From an uncultured SAR86 cluster bacterium (GTDB lineage Bacteria; Pseudomonadota; Gammaproteobacteria; Magnimaribacterales; D2472), in assembly GCA_902509555.1 (NCBI GenBank), contig CABWYS010000009.1, positions 1-33,312 on the forward strand: DNA of 33,312 bases. The letters are read 5' to 3'. The notes under the pieces were generated by a model. It was not told the origin of the DNA. It worked only from the letters and a program-made list of their open reading frames with translations, and did no database searches. A program made the translations under genes and the position numbers. Below, piece by piece: positions 4,313 through 15,960 of this stretch. The number at the start of each line of letters is the position of its first letter. Position 1 is the stretch's first letter.

Positions 4313-4972
4313 CTAATCTAACAGAGCCAAAATTTTGTTTCTGACTTCTTCTTCTATTTGTAGATGACCTTTGATATTTGGATGAATACCATCAGCCTGC
4401 ATCAGTTTTAATGAGACCATTTCTTTTATTGAGCCCTCAATAAGAGTCAAATCATATTCTGTAGCTAATTCAAGATACATGTTCTTAAAACTACTCGTAT
4501 ATTTCTCTCCATAATTTGGAGGAAGCTCAACTCCAATAAGAGCAACATTAGCTCCTTCTTGAAGTGACATTCTAATCATCTGATTTAAGTTTTCCTTTAT
4601 TATCTTTTTTATAGACATACCTCTTAAACCATCGTTCCCACCTAGCTCTAAAATTACAAGATTTGGTTTATGTTCTTCAAGCAATTTTGGAAGTCTATAT
4701 AGACCTCCAGATGTTGTATCTCCACTAATACCAGCATTAATGATTCTTATATTAATATCGAGAGCATTTAAATTTCTCTCAAGAACTGATGGCCATGATT
4801 CCTCTATTTTTACCCCATACCCAGCACTCAAACTATCTCCTAAAACAACAGCAATATATTCTTTGTTTTTGAATTGGTCGGATGAATTTACTGACGCTGA
4901 AAGTGTCAGTAGAATACCTAAAAGCAAAGCTAAGGATATTTTGAAAAATTTAATTTTGGAAGTTAAAAACAT
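4313..4972 (-). CDS. tesA: TesA-like GDSL/SGNH esterase (thioesterase I / lysophospholipase L1)
   Basis: This secreted SGNH hydrolase of 219 aa would cleave acyl-thioesters or lysophospholipids in the periplasm. From the chosen ATG it begins with a basic, hydrophobic signal peptide (KFFKISLALLLGILLTLSASV). Block I GDSLSAGYG places the catalytic Ser at residue 47. Block II (NAGISGDTTSGG) and block III (GGNDG) supply oxyanion-hole residues, and DGIHPN supplies Asp194 and His197. The frame stays open upstream to 5140, but that part is antisense to ybbA and lacks family sequence, so I start at 4972. It is divergent from ybbA, as in E. coli. The two coding regions overlap at their 5' ends by 32 bases. 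Confidence 0.92.
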   Translation of the reverse strand: MFLTSKIKFFKISLALLLGILLTLSASVNSSDQFKNKEYIAVVLGDSLSAGYGVKIEESWPSVLERNLNALDINIRIINAGISGDTTSGGLYRLPKLLEEHKPNLVILELGGNDGLRGMSIKKIIKENLNQMIRMSLQEGANVALIGVELPPNYGEKYTSSFKNMYLELATEYDLTLIEGSIKEMVSLKLMQADGIHPNIKGHLQIEEEVRNKILALLD

Positions 4973-5609
4973 CACCAAAGAAGTTAACAGCCCAGAGGGC
5001 CTTTTGACAATAGTTAAAGATATTAATTTATCAGTTGAGCAAGGCAAGCCTATATCATTAGTAGGCCCATCTGGATCTGGAAAAACTACACTTTTAGCCA
5101 TCATGGCAGGGCTTGATTTACCCACCTCTGGAACTGTCACTCTGATGGGCTCTCAAATTACAATACTTGACGAAGATAAAAGGGCGCAAATCAGAGGTAA
5201 AGACGTTGGCTTTGTTTTTCAGTCATTTCATTTGATGCCAAGATTAACTGCTCTTGATAATGTGATGTTGCCTCTTGAGATTTCAGGGGATCCTTATTCA
5301 ATGGATAAGGCTCAAGAAGCGCTTAAGCAAGTTGGTTTATCCAAAAGGGCAAAGCATTTTGCAACCCAACTCAGTGGTGGTGAAAAACAGCGTGTTGCCA
5401 TTGCAAGATCCATTGTTAATAAACCTAAAATTTTATTTGCTGATGAGCCAACCGGCAACTTAGATAAAAAAAGCTCAGGCTCTATAACCGATCTTTTATT
5501 TTCATTAAATGAATTGATTAACACAACTTTGGTTTTAGTGACCCATGATTTATCTTTGGCAGAAAAGTGTGATGAAGTTTATGAGCTCGATGAAGGTCGT
5601 CTATTGTGA
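4941..5609 (+). CDS. ybbA: ABC transporter ATP-binding protein YbbA
   Basis: This is a LolD/MacB-class ATPase of about 222 aa. Walker A is GPSGSGKTT, the signature LSGGEKQRVAIARS, Walker B ILFADEP followed by TGNLD, and the H-loop LVTHD. No ATG lies near the family N-terminus (LEVKNITKEV). I choose TTG at 4941 because AAGGA at 4932-4936 stands four bases before it, giving MKNLILEVKNI. The frame is open much further upstream, but that part is antisense to tesA. Its partner ybbP follows with a 4-base overlap. By analogy with E. coli, YbbA and YbbP form a complex linked to the neighbouring periplasmic esterase TesA; what it moves or extracts is not established from this sequence. Confidence 0.88.
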   Translation: MKNLILEVKNITKEVNSPEGLLTIVKDINLSVEQGKPISLVGPSGSGKTTLLAIMAGLDLPTSGTVTLMGSQITILDEDKRAQIRGKDVGFVFQSFHLMPRLTALDNVMLPLEISGDPYSMDKAQEALKQVGLSKRAKHFATQLSGGEKQRVAIARSIVNKPKILFADEPTGNLDKKSSGSITDLLFSLNELINTTLVLVTHDLSLAEKCDEVYELDEGRLL

Positions 5610-8071
5610 TTAGAGGCTTGATATATGGCTTAAAAAAATTTAGGTCAGAAATTTTTAGTGGTGACTTACTCATATTGTTTTTCTCTATTGTTTTAGCTGT
5701 CACATCCATCTCTAGTGTTGGATTTTTGGCTGACAGGCTGCAATCTTCCATGCAAATGCAAGCTTCAAGTATTTTAGGCGCAGATCTTGTATTGCGTTCA
5801 GCGTCTGAAATTGATTCTAAATATTTAGACTTGGCTGCAGTAAATGATCTAAATTCAGCTCAGACAATTACATTTTTAAGTATGGTGCTAACAGATGATG
5901 ACAATCTGTTAGCCTCCATTAAGGCTGCAACAGACTCATATCCACTCAGGGGAGAATTGCGGGTGATTAATTTTGATGGTATTCCAATTCAGCATTCTGG
6001 ATCACCCCCTTCAGGTTTCATCTGGATAGAAAAAAAACTCTCTGACTCTTTAGGTTTAAACCAGTCAGATAAAGTTTCTATCGGTAATAAAAACTTAATC
6101 GTTGAAGGCATTATTGAGGATTATCCAGATAGAAATTCAAGCTTTGTTGGCTTTTATCCTATTGCAATTGTAAATATTAATGATGTTGATGAGATGGGAG
6201 TGATTCAAACTGGCAGCAGAGTTGTTTATAGAAAACTTTTTTCAGGTACTCAGGATAACCTTGATCGTTATGAAAAATCTCTTGGTTCAATTCCAGCCAG
6301 CATTAGAGTTCAAAATGCATTAGAGGCTGGAGATAATCTTGGAGAGGATATAGCTAATTCCAACACTTTTTTTAATTTGGCAAGTCTTTTCACCATAATC
6401 ATATCTGTTATTGCAGCTATGATGGCAGTTAAAAGATATGCAAGCAGAAATCTTCTTCATACTTCATTGATGAAAGTTTTTGGTGCTTCTAAGTCGTTTA
6501 TTTTGGGTCATCAAATTATGCAGCTTGTATTAATAGTTATTACTGCATCGATATTAGGATTGATTTTTGGATATGCATTACAGCATCTTTTGCTATCTAC
6601 TTTGCAGGGAATCATCAATGCTAATTTACCGCCTCCTTCATCTCGACCAATCATACTTGGCTTTATTACAGCCGCTTTTGTTGTTTTTGCGACTGCATCC
6701 CCATATTTAAAAATTCTTAGTGAAACAGAGCCAATACGAATCTTGAGAAATGATTTCAATATCAAGCTATCAAGCAACCTTATGATTTACCTAGTTGCGT
6801 TTTTTACAATGTTTGGATTTCTCGGAGTTTTATTTCAAGATATTAGATTAATTTTATACATAGTTATTTCATTGATCTTGGTAACTTCTGCATTGTTTTT
6901 GATAGGAAAATTATTGATTTACATTCTTTCCTCTATGAAATTTTCTAATGGTACAGGATGGAAGCTGGGTCTGAAGAACATAGTTCAGCGAGGTAACGAT
7001 AGTGTATTGCAGGTAATTATTTTTGGACTTTCTTTGTTGTTTCTTGTCGTACTTGCAGAGACAAGAACTGATCTAGTCGATTCATGGGGTGAAACCCTTG
7101 ACGAAGATACCCCTAATTATTTCTTGTTTAACATTCAAGAATATAACTTGAAACCCATTTCAAATTATTTAAAGGATCAAGCAAATATCACCCCAGATTT
7201 CACTCCTTTAATTCGTGGCAGACTTTTATCTGCAAGCCGCCCTGGATCTGAAGAAGTCAATTTTGATAATCTTATGGAAAGAGAAGCTAATTTAACTTGG
7301 CGGAATCTTCTGCCACCAAGTAATGCCTTGGTAGATGGCGAATGGTGGACCAATGGTGAGGAAGTTTCAGAGGTTTCGGTTGATCGCGAGATTGCAGCAT
7401 CAATGAAGCTTGAAATTGGTGATGTGCTTAGTTTTTCTGCTGGCGGTACAAAATTCAGCGCAACTGTAACAAGTTTTAGAGAGATTGAATGGCAAAGCTT
7501 TTCTCCAAATTTCTTTTTTATCTTATCTCCAGCTGCAGGCAAAGAACTTCCCAATTCGTACATTACGAGCATTAAGGTCGAAGGCTCTAAAATGTTGATG
7601 AGTAACTTTATTTCACGTTTTCCCACTATTACAAGTATAAATTTAGAGGCAATTATAGATCAGGCTAAAAGCTCAATCTCAAGCGCTTCTTTGGCTGTGC
7701 AATACATTTTCTTATTAACATTGATTGCGGGAATTCTAGCTTTGATTGCATCCATATACTCGAATAGAGATCAACGAACCAAAGAGACCGCAATCATGCA
7801 TGCAATTGGAGCCAGCAGGGCAATGATCTTTAAATCTGCCGCATCGGAATTTTTTATATTAGGCATGTTATCTGCAACCACGGCAATTATTTTCTCCACA
7901 ATACTTTCATCTGTAATTTTTTATCAATTTCTTGATCTTACTTATTCACCAAATTTCTCAATTCTTGGGCTAAGTTTTTTTCTTGCGATTGCTTTTATAT
8001 TTCTTGCCGGCGTCATCTCTATTAAAAAAAGTATTTATGCCTCGCCTATGATCACTTTGAGAGATTCTTAG
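5606..8071 (+). CDS. ybbP: FtsX/MacB-type ABC permease YbbP
   Basis: This large inner-membrane permease of 821 aa is about the size of E. coli YbbP (804). An N-terminal membrane span at about residues 17-40 is followed by a periplasmic domain (RLQSSMQMQASSILGADLVLRS). A first FtsX-like bundle covers about residues 255-375 and central hydrophobic pairs about 390-450. A second periplasmic domain covers about 490-690, and a last three-helix FtsX bundle (ETAIMHAIGASRAMIFK) about 700-815. This duplicated FtsX layout is typical of mechanotransmission-type ABC systems (family knowledge). The GTG start overlaps the end of ybbA. The next gene region, 35 bases after the stop, is the left end of the tRNA-Ser element. 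Confidence 0.9.
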   Translation: MIRGLIYGLKKFRSEIFSGDLLILFFSIVLAVTSISSVGFLADRLQSSMQMQASSILGADLVLRSASEIDSKYLDLAAVNDLNSAQTITFLSMVLTDDDNLLASIKAATDSYPLRGELRVINFDGIPIQHSGSPPSGFIWIEKKLSDSLGLNQSDKVSIGNKNLIVEGIIEDYPDRNSSFVGFYPIAIVNINDVDEMGVIQTGSRVVYRKLFSGTQDNLDRYEKSLGSIPASIRVQNALEAGDNLGEDIANSNTFFNLASLFTIIISVIAAMMAVKRYASRNLLHTSLMKVFGASKSFILGHQIMQLVLIVITASILGLIFGYALQHLLLSTLQGIINANLPPPSSRPIILGFITAAFVVFATASPYLKILSETEPIRILRNDFNIKLSSNLMIYLVAFFTMFGFLGVLFQDIRLILYIVISLILVTSALFLIGKLLIYILSSMKFSNGTGWKLGLKNIVQRGNDSVLQVIIFGLSLLFLVVLAETRTDLVDSWGETLDEDTPNYFLFNIQEYNLKPISNYLKDQANITPDFTPLIRGRLLSASRPGSEEVNFDNLMEREANLTWRNLLPPSNALVDGEWWTNGEEVSEVSVDREIAASMKLEIGDVLSFSAGGTKFSATVTSFREIEWQSFSPNFFFILSPAAGKELPNSYITSIKVEGSKMLMSNFISRFPTITSINLEAIIDQAKSSISSASLAVQYIFLLTLIAGILALIASIYSNRDQRTKETAIMHAIGASRAMIFKSAASEFFILGMLSATTAIIFSTILSSVIFYQFLDLTYSPNFSILGLSFFLAIAFIFLAGVISIKKSIYASPMITLRDS

Positions 8072-8105
8072 GTTTAGTTCATGTAAAATGCTACAGCATT
8101 AATTC

Positions 8106-8144
8106 GGAGAGATGGCAGAGTGGTCGATTGCGCTACCTTGGAAA
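8106..8144 (+). pseudogene. 5' half of tRNA-Ser(GGA), left attachment repeat
   Basis: The segment matches bases 1-39 of the tRNA at 10583-10672: acceptor 5' strand, D arm, anticodon 5' strand CTACC and loop TTGGAAA. It then diverges into CCGATATAAGCC, with no 3' half. It cannot fold as a tRNA. It most likely marks the original 5' end of the chromosomal gene, left behind by the element. A TAAAAT -10-like box at 8084-8089 could still fire, which would yield a dead-end transcript. Confidence 0.85.
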
Positions 8145-8368
8145 CCGATATAAGCCTTTATTTTCCTGTTATGCCTAATACCAAATATCCCTTAAATACA
8201 GCCTTTACAGGACATTCTGATATTTGCTGATAATTAATAAAAACTAACGATACAGAGAACTTTTGTGCTCGTTTTTGTGCTCGATAGCTTATTACCTTAA
8301 TTGAGAATTTATGACTCTAGAAAAACTCTGCACGTTCGAATTACCCACATGGAATTGTAAGTAAGAAC
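8145..8368. other. left-end non-coding stretch of the element with paired GTGCTC repeats
   Basis: No convincing gene is visible here. The stretch holds two direct copies of TTTTGTGCTCG at 8261-8271 and 8273-8283, 12 bp apart, and an imperfect CCTGT...ACAGG inverted pair. The GTGCTC motif recurs near the right end of the element. In this setting such repeats resemble arm-type integrase binding sites (inference). Confidence 0.5.
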
Positions 8369-8548
8369 CTAGATTATCTGGAATATGTAATCTGCAATAC
8401 AACCAAGTGCAAACATGATTATCAACGCTAGATAGACTGGTATATTTTTAACCTCTAATTTTATTAGTCCTGCTAGCAATGATCCCAATAAAATATAAGG
8501 GATGACACCTATTAATATCATTACAAAGACATATCCAATGTACTCCAT
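8369..8548 (-). CDS. 59-aa two-helix membrane protein of the tRNA-Ser element
   Basis: A small protein of unknown family, last gene of the element's minus-strand run. It begins MEYIGYVFVMILIGV and holds two strongly hydrophobic segments (about residues 4-29 and 36-57) joined by a short KLEVKNIP loop, ending IADYIFQII. Its ATG shares one base with the stop of the 155-aa gene upstream (TAATG), a typical translational-coupling arrangement. That coupling and the clean open frame support it as real despite its size. The sequence suggests an inner-membrane location; no function can be assigned. Confidence 0.6.
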   Translation of the reverse strand: MEYIGYVFVMILIGVIPYILLGSLLAGLIKLEVKNIPVYLALIIMFALGCIADYIFQII

Positions 8549-9015
8549 TAGCCTGACATCTCACCAAAGACACCTCTGATAAAAAGAACGATTAATGCCA
8601 GCCAGTAGAAACTCGTTATTTGAAAAAACTGACCAATCCAAAGTTCTATTTTCCATTTAACTCTATGCTCAGCTTTTAATGTTTTAAGAATCTTTGCGTC
8701 AGACAGTTCTGCAAATTCACTCCTTTTATATTTGAAATATGCCAGCATTTCTTTGTGTGTTTTTGAGTCTGGCGATGCGTTATAGGCTTCAAGAAATTCC
8801 TCTGCTTCTTCATTATGTCTTTCCCATCTTTCTCTGACATCTTTAACACTTAAAGAAGTTATATAAATAACAAATGCAGTAAAAACCAATTCATCAATCT
8901 TTAGGTTCAACCAATCAAAAGTAACAATCTTTTCAGCACCATCACCCATAAAAACACCACCTTCCACAAAGCTGGTAATTATCATACCTATTAATTCACC
9001 TAATGTAGTTTCCAT
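8548..9015 (-). CDS. 155-aa membrane protein of the tRNA-Ser element, unknown family
   Basis: The largest protein of the element. A hydrophobic N-terminal stretch (METTLGELIGMIITSFVEGG) is followed by a second membrane segment near residues 41-56 (ELVFTAFVIYITSL). A highly charged, helix-prone middle follows at about 57-120 (KDVRERWERHNEEAEEFLEAY, then a Lys/Glu-rich stretch). A C-terminal membrane span (about 130-150, FYWLALIVLFIRGVFG) ends it. This gives a cytoplasmic or periplasmic coiled domain tethered at both ends. I do not recognise the family. It starts two bases after the previous gene's stop and is coupled by TAATG to the 59-aa gene. It may be the core of a membrane complex made by this operon (inference). 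Confidence 0.7.
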   Translation of the reverse strand: METTLGELIGMIITSFVEGGVFMGDGAEKIVTFDWLNLKIDELVFTAFVIYITSLSVKDVRERWERHNEEAEEFLEAYNASPDSKTHKEMLAYFKYKRSEFAELSDAKILKTLKAEHRVKWKIELWIGQFFQITSFYWLALIVLFIRGVFGEMSG

Positions 9016-9017
9016 AT

Positions 9018-9248
9018 TTAGTCCTTATAAGGGTAGGGATCACATTTGCCAGAGAGTATGTATCTGATTAACCAACCCATGCCCCAAAACAAAAAACAAA
9101 ACACAGGTGCACTTAAGAACATTGCAACATCATCTAAGCCTTCTTTCATAAAAAAACCACCAACCATTAAGCCACCAAAAGTTATAAATCCAAGAATAAA
9201 ACCAAACCAGTGAATCACCAGCCCCAATCTAGCTACAAAATCTTTCAT
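9018..9248 (-). CDS. 76-aa two-helix membrane protein of the tRNA-Ser element
   Basis: An unrecognised small membrane protein with segments at about residues 8-34 (Gly- and Phe-rich) and 42-65 (MFLSAPVFCFLFWGMGWLIRYIL). A polar tail SGKCDPYPYKD follows. The end of the second helix (WLIRYILSGK) resembles the plus-strand protein of the same element (IRWIVSGKTYQK), hinting at related membrane modules. The ATG overlaps the upstream stop (ATGA), so it is co-translated with the 82-aa protein. Only a location in the inner membrane can be proposed. Confidence 0.65.
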   Translation of the reverse strand: MKDFVARLGLVIHWFGFILGFITFGGLMVGGFFMKEGLDDVAMFLSAPVFCFLFWGMGWLIRYILSGKCDPYPYKD

Positions 9249-9493
9249 TCGTCTTCTTTGTAAAATTCTTCCAAGTGTTCTCTATGAGCTTCTATTTCCT
9301 CAGCCATTGTAGGAACTAAATGAAGGTTTAACTCATCTACCTTTCCCTCTACTCTCATTACCATCTCTTGAGTTTGAGATATGTATCTATTCATTATTTC
9401 AATAGTAGTCTTTGATCTATGCAAGCTTCCATACTCATTGACACATAACAAAATAAAATTAACCACCACCATTACTGCTATAAATGTAATCAT
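9245..9493 (-). CDS. 82-aa membrane-anchored coiled-coil protein of the tRNA-Ser element
   Basis: A single N-terminal membrane segment (about residues 2-18, TFIAVMVVVNFILLCV) is followed by a polar helical region with heptad-like spacing (IMNRYISQTQEMVMRVEGKV) and an acidic tail (EEIEAHREHLEEFYKEDE). The start is well supported: AAAGGAG stands eight bases upstream and the ATG overlaps the previous stop (ATGA). The anchor-plus-coil design repeats that of the 100-aa protein at the head of the operon, so the two could pair (inference). No family is recognised. Confidence 0.68.
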   Translation of the reverse strand: MITFIAVMVVVNFILLCVNEYGSLHRSKTTIEIMNRYISQTQEMVMRVEGKVDELNLHLVPTMAEEIEAHREHLEEFYKEDE

Positions 9494-9666
9494 TTTAATT
9501 TCTCCTTTAGTTTTTGCACTTCAGCTTCAAGCACCTTAACTCTTTCAATTAAATCTTTATTGATATGGTTTTGCAATTCTTCGTTTTGAACTAAGTTTTT
9601 ATAAAGTGGATTATCACTTAGATCAGAGATTTGCTTTGCTAAGTCTTTAAGATTTTCTTCAGTCAT
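9490..9666 (-). CDS. 58-aa soluble coiled-coil protein of the tRNA-Ser element
   Basis: A short, charged, helix-forming protein without membrane segments. It begins MTEENLKDLAKQISDL and ends in a leucine-spaced coiled coil (VKVLEAEVQKLKEKLK). The frame also opens at a TTG nine bases upstream (9675), but the ATG at 9666 gives a cleaner N-terminus. It overlaps the end of the 100-aa gene and shares ATGA with the 82-aa gene. It may bind the coiled-coil parts of its operon partners. It could be mistaken for an antitoxin, but there is no toxin-like neighbour. Confidence 0.6.
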   Translation of the reverse strand: MTEENLKDLAKQISDLSDNPLYKNLVQNEELQNHINKDLIERVKVLEAEVQKLKEKLK

Positions 9667-9961
9667 ACTCACCAAGTGCAGATGCTACCAATACATCAAC
9701 ATCACCTTTAGTAATAGCTAAGCCTGTTTTAACCTCATCAATCTCATAGCCAAGCTCTACAACTTTTACGCCATAGCTAGCCAATCTCTCATTGATTGTC
9801 CAAAAATCTCCTTCAGCATTTATATCCATTCCAATTCTATCAATTATCAAATTAGACATATTTTGATTTGAATCAATCTCTTTATTAAGTTCATTATTTT
9901 GGTAAATCAGCAATGTAATGCAGATAGCAAAACAGACATTCATTATGTTTTGTATGCTCAT
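9659..9961 (-). CDS. 100-aa membrane-anchored protein, first gene of the element's minus-strand operon
   Basis: The N-terminus is one membrane helix (MSIQNIMNVCFAICITLLIY). A polar, helix-prone region follows (NNELNKEIDSNQNMSNLIID), then a mixed domain containing GDFWTINERLASYGVKVVEL and a C-terminal TKGDVDVLVASALGEYD. A strong ribosome site (AAAGGAGAG, three bases before the ATG) fits its place as first gene of the operon; the promoter must lie in the 113-bp divergent gap to 10075. The family is not recognised. The membrane anchor suggests a scaffold or sensor role, but this is only inference. Confidence 0.7.
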   Translation of the reverse strand: MSIQNIMNVCFAICITLLIYQNNELNKEIDSNQNMSNLIIDRIGMDINAEGDFWTINERLASYGVKVVELGYEIDEVKTGLAITKGDVDVLVASALGEYD

Positions 9962-10074
9962 AATCTCTCCTTTGTGTCTTAATAATACACTGAATAAGTT
10001 TGATTGAAGGATTCTTGATCTAGAAAAAAATTACGCTCGCAACCCTCGATGTGTGTTTGCTATAGTAAGAACCT

Positions 10075-10320
10075 ATGAAAGAAAGAATTGATAAAGTTTT
10101 AAGGTTTATAGCTGTTGGCTATCCATTGATATTCGTTTTTGCATGTCTAATGAGGATAATTGACCCTTACAATTCATTTGCTCCGATAGAGAAACTTTTG
10201 TTTGGTAGAGCTGTTCGTTCTCTTATGGACTTCAACCAATTTCCTTTCGAGCCAATAATAGCTACAGCACTTTTATTTGGAATACGCTGGATTGTATCTG
10301 GCAAGACCTATCAAAAATAA
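10075..10320 (+). CDS. 81-aa membrane protein of the tRNA-Ser element
   Basis: The only plus-strand gene in the element, divergent from the six-gene run. Hydrophobic segments lie at about residues 10-27 (FIAVGYPLIFVFACLM) and 58-73 (PIIATALLFGIRWIV), separated by a polar loop, with the end SGKTYQK. A TATAGT -10-like box at 10059-10064 stands only ten bases before the ATG and no clear ribosome site is present, so its transcript may be nearly leaderless. The WIVSGK ending resembles that of the 76-aa minus-strand protein. Function is unknown. Confidence 0.55.
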   Translation: MKERIDKVLRFIAVGYPLIFVFACLMRIIDPYNSFAPIEKLLFGRAVRSLMDFNQFPFEPIIATALLFGIRWIVSGKTYQK

Positions 10321-10399
10321 ATAGCTTAATGCTTAACCATCTGACTTGATCTCTCCTGGAATTGCACCAGTAAGTCTTGTAGCAACGCCATCGCATTAG

Positions 10400-10495
10400 G
10401 ATCATTCTCACTATATGCCAGAGCAATACGATGGCTACCTACAAGAAGCTATGGATAAGCTTCAAGCATTACAGGTTAAGAATTCAGATCTGTAA
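10400..10495 (+). pseudogene. possible C-terminal relic of a tyrosine integrase
   Basis: A short open frame reads DHSHYMPEQYDGYLQEAMDKL and ends VKNSDL-stop. Just before it, in the next frame, the bases read Leu-Gly, so one deleted base would give LGHSHYMPEQY. That looks like the LGHS...Y box and C-terminal helix of tyrosine recombinases. The place also fits, since int genes usually lie beside the att site. The match is short and could be chance; nothing upstream reads as the rest of an integrase. Confidence 0.25.
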
Positions 10496-10509
10496 TTAAA
10501 TTGGGTTTT

Positions 10510-10542
10510 GAGCACAAACTTTTTGTGCTCGAAGTTGTGCTC
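10510..10542. repeat. GTGCTC repeat cluster, right end of element
   Basis: GAGCACAAA (10510-10518) is the inverted copy of TTTGTGCTC (10522-10530), and a further direct copy TTGTGCTC lies at 10535-10542. With the two copies at 8261-8283 the element has five GTGCTC-type sites, two inside the left end and three inside the right. They are candidates for arm-type recombinase sites or for excisionase binding. The inverted pair alone could also form a hairpin. Confidence 0.5.
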
Positions 10543-10582
10543 TTAGAATCAACTTAAAGTACAATTCCCATTCCTATCAGCA

Positions 10583-10672
10583 GGAGAGATGGCAGAGTGG
10601 TCGATTGCGCTACCTTGGAAAGGTAGTAACTGGGCAACTGGTTCCGGGGTTCGAATCCCCGTCTCTCCGCCA
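10583..10672 (+). tRNA. tRNA-Ser(GGA)
   Basis: A complete class II tRNA with encoded CCA. The acceptor stem GGAGAGA pairs with TCTCTCC and the discriminator is G. The D arm is present and the anticodon stem CTACC/GGTAG encloses the loop TTGGAAA (anticodon GGA). The long variable arm follows, and the T arm is CGGGG-TTCGAAT-CCCCG. Bases 1-39 are repeated at 8106-8144. After integration the promoter of this gene must come from element DNA. Confidence 0.97.
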
Positions 10673-10766
10673 ATGCTCTTCAACCCACATCTTTTATTTT
10701 AAGTAACATTTAAGTGACAAATTAATAACGATCATTTAAAGTTGAATAAAAAATATTACACTTTTT

Positions 10767-11057
10767 ATGAAAGAATTTTATAAAAACATTTCTGATGCAT
10801 TGAGCATGCTTGACGGGTTGGAACAAGATCTAAATATTAGGCACTTTAGTCCAAATGAACTAAAAGTTTTTTATACAATCATTATTCGTGCTGCCCATAA
10901 TGAACATGGCTCCAATATTACAGATATAGTAGAAAATTCTGGAATGTCTCGCTCAACTGTATATAAAACTCTGAAAAAATTATCCTTAGAAAAGATTATC
11001 AATTTACATCAATCTGAAGAAGATGGCCGCGAATCTATTGTTGTTTTAAATAGTTAA
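10767..11057 (+). CDS. MarR/TrmB-like winged-helix regulator
   Basis: A 96-aa putative DNA-binding protein. The centre is a winged helix-turn-helix: LKVFYTIIIRAAHN forms the first helix, ITDIVENSGMSRSTVYKTLKKL (about residues 52-73) the recognition unit, and EKIINLHQSEEDGRESIVVL the wing. There is no separate effector domain, so it is probably a compact dimer. It lies 95 bases after tRNA-Ser and 17 bases before a membrane-protein gene on the same strand, which is a candidate target or co-regulated partner. The ligand and operator are unknown. Confidence 0.7.
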   Translation: MKEFYKNISDALSMLDGLEQDLNIRHFSPNELKVFYTIIIRAAHNEHGSNITDIVENSGMSRSTVYKTLKKLSLEKIINLHQSEEDGRESIVVLNS

Positions 11058-11074
11058 CCATACACACTTCCTTA

Positions 11075-11647
11075 GTGAAAAATTTTCTCTCACTCTCTTT
11101 GACTAGCTTTTTATTTTCAAGCGTTTTATGGGTGTTGTGGCACTTTATAGATACCCATCTATTATTTTTAGCAGGTAAGGGTGGTCTTTTCTATTTGCCT
11201 CATGCTGCAAGGGTTTTATGTGTTGTGTATTTTGGCTGGAAAGCTATACCTGCATTATATCTCGGTGAGCTGATTGGGCCTAATGTAATTGATCCTGGAA
11301 TGTATTCTTTTTCTATACTCGTACCAAGCCTCATAAGCGTTATATCAGTTCCATTATCCTTGGCTTTGCTAAACTCATTAGGCTTTTCTTTAGGGCAAAC
11401 AAGAACAAGCCCTTTAAACAAAAGAAACTATAAACACATTCTTTTAATTACTTTTATATCGGCTGGCTTTAATGCGCTTTTAGTAAATTTATACCTGAGT
11501 AGAAACAATTTAAGTTTTTCTAACGCCATTACTGATATCGAACAAGTATCTGCATTTTTGATAGGCGATATTCTTGGAGCAACTATAGTCTTTATACTTT
11601 TAGCTTACATCTTAAAACCAGTTTTAAGGCAGGCAAGAAATCAATAA
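11075..11647 (+). CDS. multi-pass membrane protein, MASE1-like
   Basis: A 190-aa inner-membrane protein with about five to six hydrophobic segments. The N-terminal half contains GLFYLPHAARVLCVVYFGWKAIPALYLGEL, whose pattern (aromatic-Leu-Pro, Arg-hydrophobic, FGW-A, LGEL) resembles the MASE1 sensory membrane domain. No output domain (GGDEF, kinase) is fused. The GTG start at 11075 lacks a clear ribosome site and may depend on readthrough from the regulator gene. The 3' end overlaps the convergent DUF885 gene by seven bases. Role unknown. Confidence 0.6.
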   Translation: MKNFLSLSLTSFLFSSVLWVLWHFIDTHLLFLAGKGGLFYLPHAARVLCVVYFGWKAIPALYLGELIGPNVIDPGMYSFSILVPSLISVISVPLSLALLNSLGFSLGQTRTSPLNKRNYKHILLITFISAGFNALLVNLYLSRNNLSFSNAITDIEQVSAFLIGDILGATIVFILLAYILKPVLRQARNQ

Positions 11648-13458
11648 CCCATAATCCATTCGTCAATAATATCTTCAAGAATAAACAAAGGAACAATTCC
11701 TTGATCTAGAACCACTGTATGAAACTTCTTAATATCAAACTGTTCTCCAAGAGCTTGTTTGGCTTTTTCTCTTAATTCTAGAATCTTTAGCATTCCCATT
11801 TTGTAGCTAGTTGCTTGACCAGGCCAAACAATATATCGCTCAATTTCAACTCTAACTTCTGTATCTGACATGCCAGTAGTTCTCTTCATGTAATCCATGG
11901 CTTCTTCTCTGGTCCATTTTTTAAAATGCATGCCTGTATCTACAACAAGTCTATTGGCTCTGAACATTTCACTTTGTAGAACTCCCAGCTCATCATATAG
12001 ATTTTTAGTCATGCCAACCTCTACAGCGAGTTGCTCTGAGTACAAGGCCCAGCCTTCAGTAAATGCAGAGGTTCTATAGCCCATCTTTCTGTAAAGTGTT
12101 AGGTCTTCATTCTCTTGATTCAAAGCGATTTGGAAATGATGACCTGGAACAGCTTCATGAAATGTAAGAGTTCTCATGCCAAATGTTGGTGTTTGCTTAA
12201 TATCATACAAATTTGCATAAAAAACACCGGGACGTGATCCGTCTAAGCTTGGAGCCTGATAATAACCCCCAGCAGCAGTTTGCTCGGAATATTCAGGAAT
12301 TGCTCTTACTTCTACAGGGCTGATTGGAAATCTTTCAAAGTAAGGTCTGACATCTTCTTCTGCCTCTTTTACCATCTGATTGTAATCAGCAATAACAATT
12401 TGTTTTCGATCTGGAGTATCGGCGTAAAGAAACTCTGGATTCTCATTTAACTCATTCATCATCTCGCCAACAGGCTTATTAACTTCATAACCCAACAAAA
12501 TAAAGATTTCCTTCATTCGATTTCCAATCCTTTCAACTTCTGAAAGACCAATCTGATGGATTTCTTCAGCTGTATAGTCTGTCGTGGTGTAAGACCGAAG
12601 ACGTGATGCATAAAAGGCATCACCATTGGGCAAAGACCAAACACCATGATGCTTATTTGCCTGATCGTAATTGCTCTCCATGTAAAGCAAAATTGACTCG
12701 TAGCCTGGCTTTACATCAAATTGAATGGCCTTACTCAATTCAACAAACAAAGCTTCTTTTTTCTCTGTCGAGATATCTAACTCATTAACTTTTCTTCTAA
12801 ATACCTGCATCAATGGATTGTTATCGTCTGTGTATGCAATTAATTCTTTAAGTTGCCTAATGACATGATCGAATACAAACTCAGGAGCAAAAATCCCTAA
12901 TTTTTTCTGTTCTTTCAACCAAAGCAAATCTGAGTTCATTGAATCATCAAAAAGACTAACTCTTTTAATGTAGTCTGTAGCTTCTCTATAATTTCGTATT
13001 GGATGAGTATCCGTCATAAACTCAACACCATTAAGATGATTGCCGCTGATTTGGTTGAATGGATAGGAATGAAACCTAAAGTTCTCAAATCTATCAATAC
13101 TATTTTCCGTATCAAAAATAGCTATTTTCTGTGTCACCCTTTGAACATCCGTTAAGCCATCTGAATTATATTTTTTGAGCATTTCAAGATGTTTTAAAGT
13201 GTCTTGATAATCCTCATCACCATCTTTAAGGCTATCAATACTTAGCTTTTGATTGTGTTTTAAAATTGCATTGAATGGATCGAAAATTCCAATGTATGTC
13301 ATAAATTCAGGCGAATCTAATAGGCTTAAAGTTAGCTCCTTGGCAAGGTAATGATCAATTGAATATGGCTTCATTAAAAATAAATTTGCTACATATAGGG
13401 ACACAACCGCAAGCCCGCTTAGGACAAGATAGCCAACATACTTCAATAATTTTTTCAT
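11641..13458 (-). CDS. DUF885 family metallopeptidase-like protein, membrane-anchored or secreted
   Basis: A 605-aa protein of the DUF885 family, large zincin-type putative peptidases. The start at 13458 is chosen because AAAGGAA lies five bases upstream and it gives a basic N-terminus with a hydrophobic segment (KKLLKYVGYLVLSGLAVVSL); 13 more codons upstream are open but lack a signal. The zinc site is visible: FHEAVPGHHFQ at about residues 433-443 and the downstream Glu in FTEGWALYSEQ at about 468. The likely location is the periplasm or the outer face of the inner membrane, acting on peptides. Substrate specificity is not known. Confidence 0.87.
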   Translation of the reverse strand: MKKLLKYVGYLVLSGLAVVSLYVANLFLMKPYSIDHYLAKELTLSLLDSPEFMTYIGIFDPFNAILKHNQKLSIDSLKDGDEDYQDTLKHLEMLKKYNSDGLTDVQRVTQKIAIFDTENSIDRFENFRFHSYPFNQISGNHLNGVEFMTDTHPIRNYREATDYIKRVSLFDDSMNSDLLWLKEQKKLGIFAPEFVFDHVIRQLKELIAYTDDNNPLMQVFRRKVNELDISTEKKEALFVELSKAIQFDVKPGYESILLYMESNYDQANKHHGVWSLPNGDAFYASRLRSYTTTDYTAEEIHQIGLSEVERIGNRMKEIFILLGYEVNKPVGEMMNELNENPEFLYADTPDRKQIVIADYNQMVKEAEEDVRPYFERFPISPVEVRAIPEYSEQTAAGGYYQAPSLDGSRPGVFYANLYDIKQTPTFGMRTLTFHEAVPGHHFQIALNQENEDLTLYRKMGYRTSAFTEGWALYSEQLAVEVGMTKNLYDELGVLQSEMFRANRLVVDTGMHFKKWTREEAMDYMKRTTGMSDTEVRVEIERYIVWPGQATSYKMGMLKILELREKAKQALGEQFDIKKFHTVVLDQGIVPLFILEDIIDEWIMGY

Positions 13459-13515
13459 AATATTCCTTTGCCTAATGTAGTATATTGATTTTAGCATTTA
13501 ACCAACGATTTAGGC

Positions 13516-13929
13516 ATGAAGAATCCATTTCACTTAGCTATCCCTGTCAATGATTTAGTTAAGGCAACTGATTTTTATGAAAACACTCTTGGGTGTCAGC
13601 GAGGCAGGGCAAGTGACTCCTGGATTGATTTTAACTTATTTGGTCATCAGCTCGTTTGTCATCTTGTTGAAGAAACTAAAAGAGCAAACTCCAATCCAGT
13701 TGATGGGGATGAAGTGCCAGTTCCACATTTTGGAGTTATCCTGAGCTTTAATCAGTTCGACACTCTTACACAGAAATTAAAAAATAAAAACCAAGTTTTT
13801 ATAATTGAACCTAAAGTTCGTTTTGCAGGTCAACCAGGTGAGCAGCGAACAATGTTTCTTCAAGACCCTAGTGGAAACGCATTAGAATTTAAGGCCTTTC
13901 AAAACTTAGACAGTCTTTTTGCTTGTTAG
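13516..13929 (+). CDS. VOC superfamily (glyoxalase-like) protein
   Basis: A 137-aa vicinal-oxygen-chelate fold protein. The first beta-alpha-beta unit is FHLAIPVNDLVKATDFYENTLG with a His in the usual first metal position. The second holds PHFGVILSFNQFDTL and ends with MFLQDPSGNALEFKAF, where Glu is the usual last metal ligand. The family includes dioxygenases, isomerases and resistance proteins, so the reaction is open. It ends 24 bases inside the convergent SnoaL-like gene. It starts 57 bases from the divergent DUF885 gene, so both probably share an upstream control region. Confidence 0.82.
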   Translation: MKNPFHLAIPVNDLVKATDFYENTLGCQRGRASDSWIDFNLFGHQLVCHLVEETKRANSNPVDGDEVPVPHFGVILSFNQFDTLTQKLKNKNQVFIIEPKVRFAGQPGEQRTMFLQDPSGNALEFKAFQNLDSLFAC

Positions 13930-14418
13930 ACTTTTTCCAATCCTTGGATTGGAGCATTGACCAGAAGTTAATGATCTATACATGCTAGCTCTTTTTTTAA
14001 AAATGGTTTCCTTAATAAACCAATTTTCGTTTTTATCTCGAATATATAAATCTTCATAGGTGCCTGAAATAGTTAAGCTAATACTTTTTAAAGTATCTAT
14101 TAAATTATAGGACATAGACCAAAATCCTGAGGCTTCGTTTCTTGATAACAATTTGATAATTGGATTTTTGCCTGCATGTTGCTCAATTAGATGACCATGA
14201 CATGAATAAAGCTCATATTTGGTTACCATGTCTTGCGCTGAAGAAAAGATACCAAAATCTTCAAAATTTATATACACATCATCCGACCAAAAACAGGCTA
14301 GGATATCGTCAGGTTTTTTTGAATCGCAGGCATTCCAATATTTAAATTTTAAACTTTTGATTGTGTTTATGGCCTGAATTGATTCAATTCTTTCGCTGAT
14401 GTTAGCGCTACTTTTCAT
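13906..14418 (-). CDS. SnoaL/NTF2-like fold protein
   Basis: A 170-aa protein with the cone-shaped NTF2 fold pattern. An N-terminal helix pair (IQAINTIKSLKFKYWNACDSK) is followed by DDILACFWSDDVYINFEDFG, a middle strand region (HAGKNPIIKLLSRNEASGFW) and LTISGTYEDLYIRDKNENWFIKETIF. This resembles the SnoaL_4 group of ring-hydroxylating-dioxygenase-beta or ketosteroid-isomerase-like proteins. The C-terminal 40 residues are basic and Ser/Thr-rich. A role in small-molecule isomerisation or hydrolysis is plausible but unproven. Its start is 69 bases from the LexA box, on the far side of the divergent promoter, so it may or may not be SOS-affected. Confidence 0.7.
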   Translation of the reverse strand: MKSSANISERIESIQAINTIKSLKFKYWNACDSKKPDDILACFWSDDVYINFEDFGIFSSAQDMVTKYELYSCHGHLIEQHAGKNPIIKLLSRNEASGFWSMSYNLIDTLKSISLTISGTYEDLYIRDKNENWFIKETIFKKRASMYRSLTSGQCSNPRIGKSLTSKKTV

Positions 14419-14458
14419 TTATAACTATTTTGGTTGATTAATCATTTTTAGCCAATAG

Positions 14459-14487
14459 TTGACTTAGTTTTAATAATGTTATTAAAT
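14459..14487 (+). promoter_or_regulatory. sigma70-type promoter for the SOS small ORF
   Basis: TTGACT at 14459-14464 and TTAAAT at 14482-14487, with a 17-bp spacer. The expected start point (about 14493) falls inside the LexA box that begins at 14487, so repressor binding would block the promoter. Confidence 0.6.
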
Positions 14488-14506
14488 ACTGTATAAATAT
14501 ACAGTA
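14487..14506. promoter_or_regulatory. LexA (SOS) box
   Basis: TACTGTATAAATATACAGTA is a near-perfect palindrome with CTG-N10-CAG, the gamma/beta-proteobacterial LexA consensus (TACTGTATATATATACAGTA). It lies ten bases before the ATG of the 77-aa gene. Confidence 0.9.
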
Positions 14507-14516
14507 AAACAATATT

Positions 14517-14750
14517 ATGAATAATTTAATACATAAAAACCCTTTAGATCCAATCTTTAATGAGTATGAGGCTTTTGTAGACAAAAGTGCAGGCTTGAAG
14601 ACTATAGCATTCAAATATTTCGGTGCAGACATACAAAAAGCGACTGAATATCTAGATCTTAACTATATACAAGAGCCAAAAGAGGACTTATCTATCAATC
14701 TTAGCTTGGTTGAAAGTGCAGAATATTATCAACCAGAATTATTGCACTAA
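14517..14750 (+). CDS. 77-aa LexA-controlled small protein of unknown function
   Basis: A small acidic soluble protein: MNNLIHKNPLDPIFNEYEAF, a middle LKTIAFKYFGADIQKATEYL with helical character, and a C-terminal NLSLVESAEYYQPELLH. No membrane segment, signal or known domain is visible, and I do not recognise the family. The case for it being real is regulatory: a strong LexA box and promoter point straight at its ATG. No Shine-Dalgarno sequence precedes the ATG. An SOS-induced small protein could be a division inhibitor, a polymerase accessory, or a DNA-mimic or inhibitor, but none of these can be chosen from the sequence. A minus-strand open frame across 14438-14632 is treated as a shadow. 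Confidence 0.65.
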   Translation: MNNLIHKNPLDPIFNEYEAFVDKSAGLKTIAFKYFGADIQKATEYLDLNYIQEPKEDLSINLSLVESAEYYQPELLH

Positions 14751-14799
14751 AGTTATATTTTTCGAATTAAAACAGTATTTATTTTAAAGGATATACCTA

Positions 14800-14805
14800 T
14801 ATAAT
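14800..14805 (+). promoter_or_regulatory. -10 box of the candidate RNA
   Basis: A perfect TATAAT at 14800-14805. The -35 region (around 14777-14783) is AT-rich and a poor match. The predicted start point is near 14812. Confidence 0.5.
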
Positions 14806-14848
14806 TTAATTAGATGTCGCATATACAAATTACTAAGGGGATTTGTTT

Positions 14849-14881
14849 ATGCTTGTTTTAATACCCTTGCGCAGGAGGTGA
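14849..14881 (+). CDS. possible ten-codon leader peptide
   Basis: ATG at 14849 is preceded at eight bases by AAGGGG and reads MLVLIPLRRR before TGA. The last codons are CGC-AGG-AGG, and these AGG AGG bases are also the start of the perfect Shine-Dalgarno sequence. Tandem rare Arg codons next to a stop could stall ribosomes and couple translation to RNA folding. It may equally be chance within a non-coding RNA. Confidence 0.3.
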   Translation: MLVLIPLRRR

Positions 14882-14983
14882 TCTTATTAGTATTTATATT
14901 AAATTAGGAAACGGAGGGTTCGCCTTTTGACAAGAGGTGAATTACCGAATTCGCCTATCAGACTTATCTAACTCTGATAGTTT

Positions 14984-15011
14984 GAAGCCTCCTTCGGGAG
15001 GCTTCTTTTTT
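14984..15011 (+). terminator. intrinsic terminator of the candidate RNA
   Basis: GAAGCCTCC-TTCG-GGAGGCTTC is a perfect nine-pair stem with a UUCG tetraloop, followed by six T. Its 5' arm (CCTCC) could also pair with the upstream AGGAGG, which would give a mutually exclusive fold. Confidence 0.93.
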
Positions 15012-15093
15012 AGATAATTTATATCTAAATTATTAACCTAAAGCTTTTTTATTAGTTTAAAATTCATCAACTTTTATTAGGCTAATTTATTTC

Positions 15094-15960
15094 ATGGAAT
15101 CTAAAGACTGGTTTTTGTTAACTACGCTTGCTGCTATTTGGGGTAGCGCTTTTATGTTTATCAAAATCTCCGCAGTAGATTTTGGACCAATTCTGCTAGT
15201 GACCTTAAGGCTATTAATTGCTGGTTTAGTCTTTATGCCTTTGCTATTAAGAAAAAAATATAGACTTTTATTTAAATCTCACTTGCCAGGAATTATTATC
15301 ATCGCAATTTTTAGCAATGCATTACCTTTTACATTATTTGCATTTGCTTCACTTGGGGCGACATCAAACATGTTGGGCATTTTAAATGGCACCACTGCAT
15401 TTTTAACAACCGTGATTGCTTATTTTTGGCTCAATGAATCAATTTCTTCAAAGCAGATCATCGGCTTATGTTTTGGTTTCTTGGGTGTCATTATCCTTGT
15501 TAATCCTGCGAATGGATCTAGCACCATTATAGCAAGCATGTGCGCATTAATGGGCTCACTTTGTTACGCCTTCAATGGTAACTATCTTCAGAAATTTCAT
15601 TCAAAATCAAACAAAAAAGTTTTAATAGGTTGGTCGATGCTATTTGGAGGCCTGTTTATGACTCCTATTGCTGTATTTAACTTGCCTGATTCTATGCCAA
15701 ATACAGATTCATTTTTGGCATTATTATGGCTTGCTGTTGTCTCAACTGGCATAGGTTATCTTGGCTATATAAGACTCATTGATAGAATAGGTGCTGTAAA
15801 AACATCAACTCTGACCTATTTGCTTCCGGTTTTCAGCATTATATGGGGTGCGATTTTTCTTCAAGAGCAAATAACATTAATAATTTTCGGTGGATTCATA
15901 TTTGTTATGATGGGTATGTACTTTGCAAATACTTTGCCTAAGACAAAAAAAGAGAATTAG
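15094..15960 (+). CDS. EamA/DMT-superfamily transporter
   Basis: A 288-aa inner-membrane protein with ten predicted helices in two EamA repeats. The first repeat has the hallmark WGSAFMFIKISAVDFGPILLVTLRLLIAGLVFMPLLL and ends near GFLGVIILVNP. The second starts near ASMCALMGSLCYAFNGNYLQKF and contains STGIGYLGYIRLIDRIGAVKTS and LPVFSIIWGAIFLQEQ. The family exports metabolites or amino acids; the substrate is not predictable. The terminator and structured RNA upstream might regulate it. The rhodanese gene follows after one base. Confidence 0.88.
   Translation: MESKDWFLLTTLAAIWGSAFMFIKISAVDFGPILLVTLRLLIAGLVFMPLLLRKKYRLLFKSHLPGIIIIAIFSNALPFTLFAFASLGATSNMLGILNGTTAFLTTVIAYFWLNESISSKQIIGLCFGFLGVIILVNPANGSSTIIASMCALMGSLCYAFNGNYLQKFHSKSNKKVLIGWSMLFGGLFMTPIAVFNLPDSMPNTDSFLALLWLAVVSTGIGYLGYIRLIDRIGAVKTSTLTYLLPVFSIIWGAIFLQEQITLIIFGGFIFVMMGMYFANTLPKTKKEN

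Follow-up and report, generated by a model that had tools for sequence, protein, structure and literature searches.

Of the 3919 islands catalogued by Islander, only a minority carry a 5′ fragment of their target tRNA gene (159, the other 3760 having a 3′ fragment; PMC4383910). An element-supplied tRNA promoter has seldom been encountered in bacteria (PMC8371274). Bacteria of the SAR86 cluster are ubiquitous in surface seawater and resist cultivation, and a SAR86 genome announcement describes a hypervariable region of surface genes (PMC3569297). Here, a tRNA-Ser(GGA) locus is described from a 33,312-nt stretch of DNA of an uncultured SAR86 bacterium, hereafter the window (contig C9 of a 1.05-Mb genome that is 70% complete). 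The window very probably holds an integrated, integrase-less member of a SAR86 island family that inserts in the anticodon loop of tRNA-Ser and carries the 5′ half of the gene.

A repeat search of the window found two directly repeated 39-base sequences, identical at all 39 positions, at 8106-8144 and 10583-10621 (spacing 2477). ARAGORN called tRNA-Ser(GGA) at 10583-10672 and no tRNA at 8106. The repeat corresponds to bases 1-39 of this tRNA, its end coinciding with the end of the anticodon loop, and the intact tRNA lies to the right. The shared bases are followed by CCGAT in the left copy and by GGTAG in the tRNA, thus identity ends right at the last anticodon-loop base. Chance is excluded by simple arithmetic for an exact 39-bp match within 33 kb. 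An earlier reading made from the letters alone (the sequence-only reading) had proposed a perfect repeat over these tRNA bases, with an element-supplied 5′ half and the intact tRNA on the right; the repeat search, the ARAGORN call and the left 5′ copy bore this out, and its 2477-bp circle agrees arithmetically with the repeat spacing, no excision having been observed. As in other tRNA islands, foreign DNA is flanked by an intact tRNA and a terminal tRNA fragment, and, as in 5′-fragment islands of the Islander type, the fragment is a 5′ one that lies upstream of the tRNA in the same orientation. Between 8050 and 10700, Rfam gave three matches at E up to 1, with the tRNA alone above its gathering score.

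The site is empty in a close relative, as the sequence-only reading had predicted. Genome G020 aligns to window positions 5074-8144 at 97.7% identity and to 10583-15481 at 97.4%, and the two aligned pieces overlap by exactly 39 bases, which are the start of the intact G020 tRNA. The overlap is likewise exactly 39 bp between G129, occupied at the GGA gene, and G030, empty there, and exactly 41 bp between G117, which has an element B, and G120, which lacks it. Among 17 loci scanned, 15 hold tRNA-Ser(GGA) and the other two are without any copy. Within those 15, a left copy is present in G014 alone, the upstream flank looks native by eye in 13, and the remaining one (G015) has only the right end of an element. 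In that G015 locus (L064 8660-8741, contig C6, genome 63% complete), this right end precedes tRNA-Ser(GGA), and the three genes found ahead of the site in the window (4313-8071) are absent, as if deleted from the element outward. In G025 (L065 5370-6660), the upstream gene and tRNA-Ser(GGA) are separated by about 1.3 kb of different sequence that contains open frames, and there is no left tRNA copy.

The comparison was extended to other SAR86 genomes, where 11 bounded elements of 1.0-15 kb were found in 10 genomes at tRNA-Ser(GGA) or tRNA-Ser(TGA) (Table 1), counts that come from a search aimed at 5′-half copies and give no share of 5′ against 3′ insertion within SAR86. One of these genomes (G137) belongs to family f3 and the rest to f1. 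In an order-wide scan of 203 genomes, patterns that required a 5′ half and excluded the native stem base after it matched 9 genomes for TGA and 3 for GGA. The G014 element was found by DNA search, while those of G015 at tRNA-Ser(TGA) (G015T), G126 and G117 were found by integrase searches and their 5′-half copies were recognised afterwards; G015T had escaped the TGA pattern, since its spacer is 14 and the pattern allowed 15-21. The two tRNA copies are identical in nine elements and differ by one mismatch in each of G120 and G110. The stop of identity at the last loop base counts as independent evidence in G000 (the window), G014, G015T, G126 and G117B, is imposed by the pattern in G129, G120, G030, G110 and G137, and is not assessable in G117A, where the right neighbour is element B. 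Elements A and B stand in tandem in G117, which indicates that insertions accrete on the 5′ side. Outside the 11 are G083 and G087, where a left copy is present and the contigs end without a tRNA-Ser, as well as G023 and L188, with no left copy in the stretches examined. A TGA-pattern match in G036, with no tRNA in the stretch examined, was judged to be chance. The junctions, the 5′ polarity of the elements and their membership of one family are demonstrated at the level of sequence. The 39-mer joined to other cargo, which the sequence-only reading had suggested looking for, occurs in G014. The view in that reading of very small size as a possible mark of a class does not hold, given the size range of the family.

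Element segments are more alike than the core flanks around them, which supports transfer between species and exchange between elements. In addition to the 89-bp block identical in G015T (Table 1), window positions 9993-10080 are 93% identical to that element. The window and G014 elements are 95.7% identical over 94 bp at the left end and 88.9% identical over 63 bp at the right, compared with 67-78% for the core flanks. Over 6 kb, the element A copies of G117 and G120 share 99.2% identity, compared with 93.8% for the right flanks and 85.7% for the nearest left flank. The window's left end (8149-8242) is present in 2 of 107 family genomes, its own included. Patterns for the 5′-half junction and the left end had no exact match in viral contigs.

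Matching pairs of tandem repeats lie at both ends of six elements (G000, G129, G015T, G126, G117B and G137), at distances of about 90-116 nt inward from the left copy and 40-75 nt upstream of the tRNA. The repeats are spaced 11-12 nt apart and their sequence differs from element to element. Each of the six pairs scored above all 400 shuffles in a test that also covered G014, G120, G030 and G110, which did not, and left out G117A. The window pair is the weakest (score 14.5, shuffle maximum 13.5, reached by 0 of 400 shuffles). G117A has no arm match between its own ends; a match does exist between its left end and the G117B right end. These repeats are putative integrase arm sites; in phages of the type investigated in PMC10865867, pairs of putative arm-type sites flank attP. 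In the G014 locus (L063), GTTACCC repeats at the left end (7535-7585) and GTGCTC-like repeats at the right end (11225-11260) were seen by eye, and this element is perhaps a hybrid of two elements.

A -10-like box, defined as at least 5 of 6 bases at 12-22 nt before the tRNA, was found at the right end of 10 of the 11 elements (G117A and G120, both counted, being one element), compared with 14% expected from element interiors. Given this box in front of the rebuilt tRNA, the elements probably replace its promoter. An island of the 5′ type has to provide the promoter, which these elements appear to do. The stranded left flanks likewise have a -10-like box in 10 of 11 cases, and by eye the native upstream region itself appears nearly duplicated in G015 and G137. 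Furthermore, a left-end module of about 90 bp is present in 11 of 13 records, of which nine served to build its model. The module also occurs once inside an island of G023 and recurs in part before internal cargo genes; it gave no consensus pair as a structured RNA.

No integrase was detected on the window element with Pfam, PHROGs or tblastn, thus it is filed as a derivative rather than an autonomous island. The tyrosine integrase expected on a tRNA island is present in G117B, where a full-length gene (368 residues) lies directly upstream of the tRNA and ends 111 bp before it. Its product has Phage_integrase and SAM-like domains above cut-offs and an Arm-domain match below, and the closest PDB sequences are 3nkh (Integrase, E 1.5e-13) and 6en0 (Int protein, 9.6e-10). 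The gene adjoins two HTH_17 genes, one just under the cut-off, which match an excisionase family of PHROGs, and an AAA_25 ATPase and an Endonuclease VII (Endonuclease_7) are also found beside it. C-terminal integrase remnants with open frames of 106 and 132 codons lie upstream of the intact tRNA-Ser(TGA), on the tRNA strand, in G015 and G126 respectively. Two short remnants of 45 and 49 codons were found in G023, one of them next to the tRNA and the other at 17 kb from it. The sequence-only reading had suggested a distinct integrase subfamily. Such a group does stand apart from the other SAR86 integrases compared, but the window copy has no detectable integrase to place in it. When 12 other SAR86 integrase loci, some with tRNAs nearby, were compared with the tRNA-Ser remnants, the best E-value was 0.046, leaving aside the remnants' match to each other. 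A 19-residue match of L063 to these remnants (E 0.042) was taken as chance.

Beyond the family, a class-level search with an E-value limit of 1e-10 matched 9 of 369 genomes; these nine short loci had no tRNA-Ser, and one had tRNA-Lys and tRNA-His. The G117 integrase is broadly phage-like, with 1700 matching phage records, and its ATPase neighbour matches 17, all below 60% identity in both cases; against viral contigs the integrase has two partial relatives (33% over 78 residues). A PF00589 search matched 103 of 107 family genomes; most of these have one to three such proteins, around 300 residues long and taken as putative XerC/XerD. In G023 (L187 245-17648), the two remnants upstream of tRNA-Ser(TGA) enclose more than 17 kb of mostly metabolic-looking genes, which may form a composite island. 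In G051 (L188 617-1180), a C-terminal integrase fragment with distant similarity to the G126 one (31%, E 1.3e-6) stops immediately before tRNA-Ser(TGA); by eye, the gene may be followed by a second 3′ tRNA half.

We infer that strands are cut in the loop, that the repeats act as arm sites and that the promoter is replaced. The integrase would exchange strands within the 7-base anticodon loop, with the tandem repeats at both ends serving as its arm-binding sites. The element would bring the 5′ half and a promoter, the rebuilt tRNA would be transcribed from element DNA, and the native promoter would stay in front of the stranded half. The window copy would have lost nearly its whole integrase gene and would be movable only with an integrase from a relative. 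Several observations weigh against this account. The assignment of integrase to site was made by position, and neither excision nor transfer was observed. The high identity of the short end segments could be partly due to constraint. Matching arms are missing from 5 of 11 elements (G014, G117A, G120, G030 and G110), and an unrelated pairing of the G030 left and G110 right ends also scores 14.5. The exception among the -10-like boxes (4 of 6 bases) is G117B, the only element with a full integrase. The supposed integrase tail in the window is without statistical support, with no tblastn integrase match there, and the window genome, 70% complete, has only two PF00589 proteins, both of Xer size, and shows no helper.

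Among the rival explanations, the left copy could be the remnant of a tandem tRNA-Ser duplication in which one copy decayed, an outcome that the sequence-only reading had named as its own refutation if no empty allele existed. A partial and a whole tRNA do lie in the same orientation 2.5 kb apart, but exact empty sites exist in three pairs and thus refute this explanation. Moreover, different tRNA genes show the same end of identity, at the last anticodon-loop base, and element ends are common to different elements, leaving duplication practically no credibility. The repeat could also be an artefact or chimera of a metagenome-assembled genome, since the window is one assembled contig only. This is very improbable, as genomes assembled separately show these ends and this architecture again, several of them on contigs longer than 40 kb with flanking core genes.

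A closer contest concerns the present mobility of the window element. It could be a dead remnant, in which an autonomous 5′-type island entered once, lost its integrase by internal deletion and no longer moves, its ends persisting only because little time has passed. This explanation is compatible with membership of the family. The integrase remnants of differing length (G015 106, G126 132, G023 45 and 49, window at most about 26 codons) resemble stepwise decay, and no helper integrase was found in the window genome. However, the window arm repeats and both tRNA copies are intact, and the same end segments occur with different cargo in G014, where no integrase remnant was detected, which suggests that integrase-less ends can spread. 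The chance of a dead remnant is judged to be a little short of even. Alternatively, the small integrase-less elements may be non-autonomous passengers, moved in trans by full relatives such as G117B and shuttling interchangeable cargo, including starch and alginate loci, among SAR86 species. Such passengers would keep only the attachment site, the arm repeats and the tRNA promoter, and would swap the front half of tRNA-Ser with its promoter. This proposal is tentative, and we lean slightly towards the dead remnant. The satellite class raised in the sequence-only reading is unproven for the window element.

The seven cargo open reading frames (ORFs) of the window gave weak matches only in Pfam and PHROGs, none over its Pfam cut-off (best E 0.001), and the two of the seven proteins that were compared with viral contigs and 50,697 phage records have no relative there. 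A model built from the 76-aa ORF and its G126 relative matches 27 of 203 order genomes, G000 and G126 included. The large members carry what family names suggest are starch- or alginate-type loci. Ten chosen ORFs of the G117 elements were read. Those of G117B include GH97, alpha-amylase, esterase, a sodium symporter, a TonB receptor, an AraC regulator and a SWEET-like protein, and those of G117A a two-component system and a TonB-type receptor. The 14.9-kb G030 element (L215 3331-18258; 9 of 11 ORFs examined) encodes Chondroitinase_B, alginate lyase/heparinase-family proteins, a PfkB kinase, a short-chain dehydrogenase, UxuA, MFS and Nramp transporters, a TonB receptor and a GntR regulator. By family names it looks like a full alginate-use locus; no integrase match and no arm repeats were found on it.

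Table 1. Features of the window and bounded elements of the family (positions are those of the window).
Feature	Position	Strand	Length	Basis or remark
Putative ybbP, gene upstream of the site	5606-8071			Product 98% identical in G020
Native -10-like box TAAAAT, presumed original tRNA promoter, stranded upstream of the fragment	8084-8089	+		Box scan; same flank before intact G020 tRNA
Displaced tRNA-Ser(GGA) 5′ half, bases 1-39, left junction	8106-8144	+		39/39 repeat; G020 empty-site overlap
Conserved left end of element	8149-8242	+		95.7% over 94 bp to G014
Left arm-type tandem repeat (GTGCTC twice), putative	8261-8282	+		19/22 bases match 10521-10542
Conserved left module, ends AGAACCTA	8285-8372	+		nhmmer 2.8e-19, copy itself in model
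Cargo ORF, hydrophobic	8369-8548	-	59 aa	No Pfam match
Cargo ORF	8548-9015	-	155 aa	No above-cut-off family match; none in viral contigs or phage records
Cargo ORF, small hydrophobic	9018-9248	-	76 aa	40% identical to G126 cargo ORF
Cargo ORF	9245-9493	-	82 aa	Sub-cut-off family matches only
Cargo ORF, possible coiled coil	9490-9675	-	61 aa	
Cargo ORF	9659-9961	-	100 aa	Sub-cut-off family matches only
Second, weaker left-module copy before + strand cargo gene	10017-10076	+		nhmmer E 0.0082
Cargo ORF	10075-10320	+	81 aa	
Block 100% identical to G015 element at tRNA-Ser(TGA)	10325-10413	+	89 bp	Core flanks 77.9%
Possible C-terminal tail of lost integrase gene	10418-10496	+	~26 codons	Position and frame only
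Right arm-type tandem repeat, putative	10521-10542	+		Match to left repeat
Element-borne -10-like box TACAAT, 17 nt before tRNA	10560-10565	+		Box scan
Rebuilt intact tRNA-Ser(GGA), first 39 bases element-supplied	10583-10672	+		ARAGORN, repeat, G020 empty site
Element G000 (window)			2477 bp	tRNA-Ser(GGA)
Element G014			3903 bp	
Element G129			1339 bp	tRNA-Ser(GGA)
Element G015T			1951 bp	tRNA-Ser(TGA)
Element G126			2173 bp	tRNA-Ser(TGA)
Element G117A			5928 bp	
Element G117B			15002 bp	
Element G120			5917 bp	Same element as G117A
Element G030			14927 bp	tRNA-Ser(TGA)
Element G110			1019 bp	
Element G137			1677 bp	

A recurrent insertion site with exact ends would explain the exchange of whole sugar- and alginate-type loci in SAR86, and this rare 5′-half style of insertion may serve as a path by which genes are exchanged in the ocean. 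The exact ends also provide a concrete junction (10621 joined to 8145) that could be sought in reads, and the family offers a bacterial system for studying 5′ tRNA integration in which the element supplies the tRNA promoter. A survey of the literature on SAR86 islands, integrases, mobile elements and polysaccharide use found no description of this family in the titles and opening abstracts of the papers listed, most subscription papers being outside its coverage.

The sequence-only reading had taken the 5′ polarity as a possible mark of a distinct integrase subfamily or satellite class, but it is an already known minority type (PMC4383910; PMC8371274). Islander 5′ islands likewise have the fragment upstream and the intact tRNA downstream, and anticodon-centred sites are one Islander class. 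However, Islander rejected candidates that lacked an integrase or were shorter than 2 kb, and no SAR86 family is described in the available portion of that paper (PMC4383910). Integrase-less copies such as that of the window therefore fall outside its search. In pTN3-like archaeal elements, a 41-bp 5′ half of the tRNA gene is common to attP and attB, and the rebuilt tRNA is severed from its original promoter (PMC8371274, PMC5495485). In contrast to the present family, these elements are archaeal and their integrase gene is split on integration, whereas that of G117B is whole and ends before the tRNA.

Tycheposons and VEIMEs are likewise islands of marine bacteria (PMC10872708, PMC10803314, PMC11389934). 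By description, tycheposons border a tRNA gene and combine a tyrosine recombinase with cargo for nutrient use, and the likeness is one of description; G117B and G030 combine a tRNA anchor with nutrient cargo, and the window cargo is without assigned function. In Prochlorococcus and Synechococcus, an integrase gene likewise lies upstream of a tRNA in variable islands, but the hosts differ, the tRNA is tRNA-Phe or tRNA-Cys, and the integrase has an atypical domain structure (PMC10187409). PICMI phage satellites are small marine elements with int, alpA and replication genes (PMC10803314), to which G117B is comparable at the level of gene content. The profile matches of the G117B AAA_25 ATPase include polymerase/primase (phrog_906, E 1.4e-11), below better matches to families of unknown function. 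By comparison, PICMI115 lies between zntR and fis rather than in a tRNA gene, and the PICMI model needs int, alpA and prim together (PMC10803314), none of which is found on the window element.

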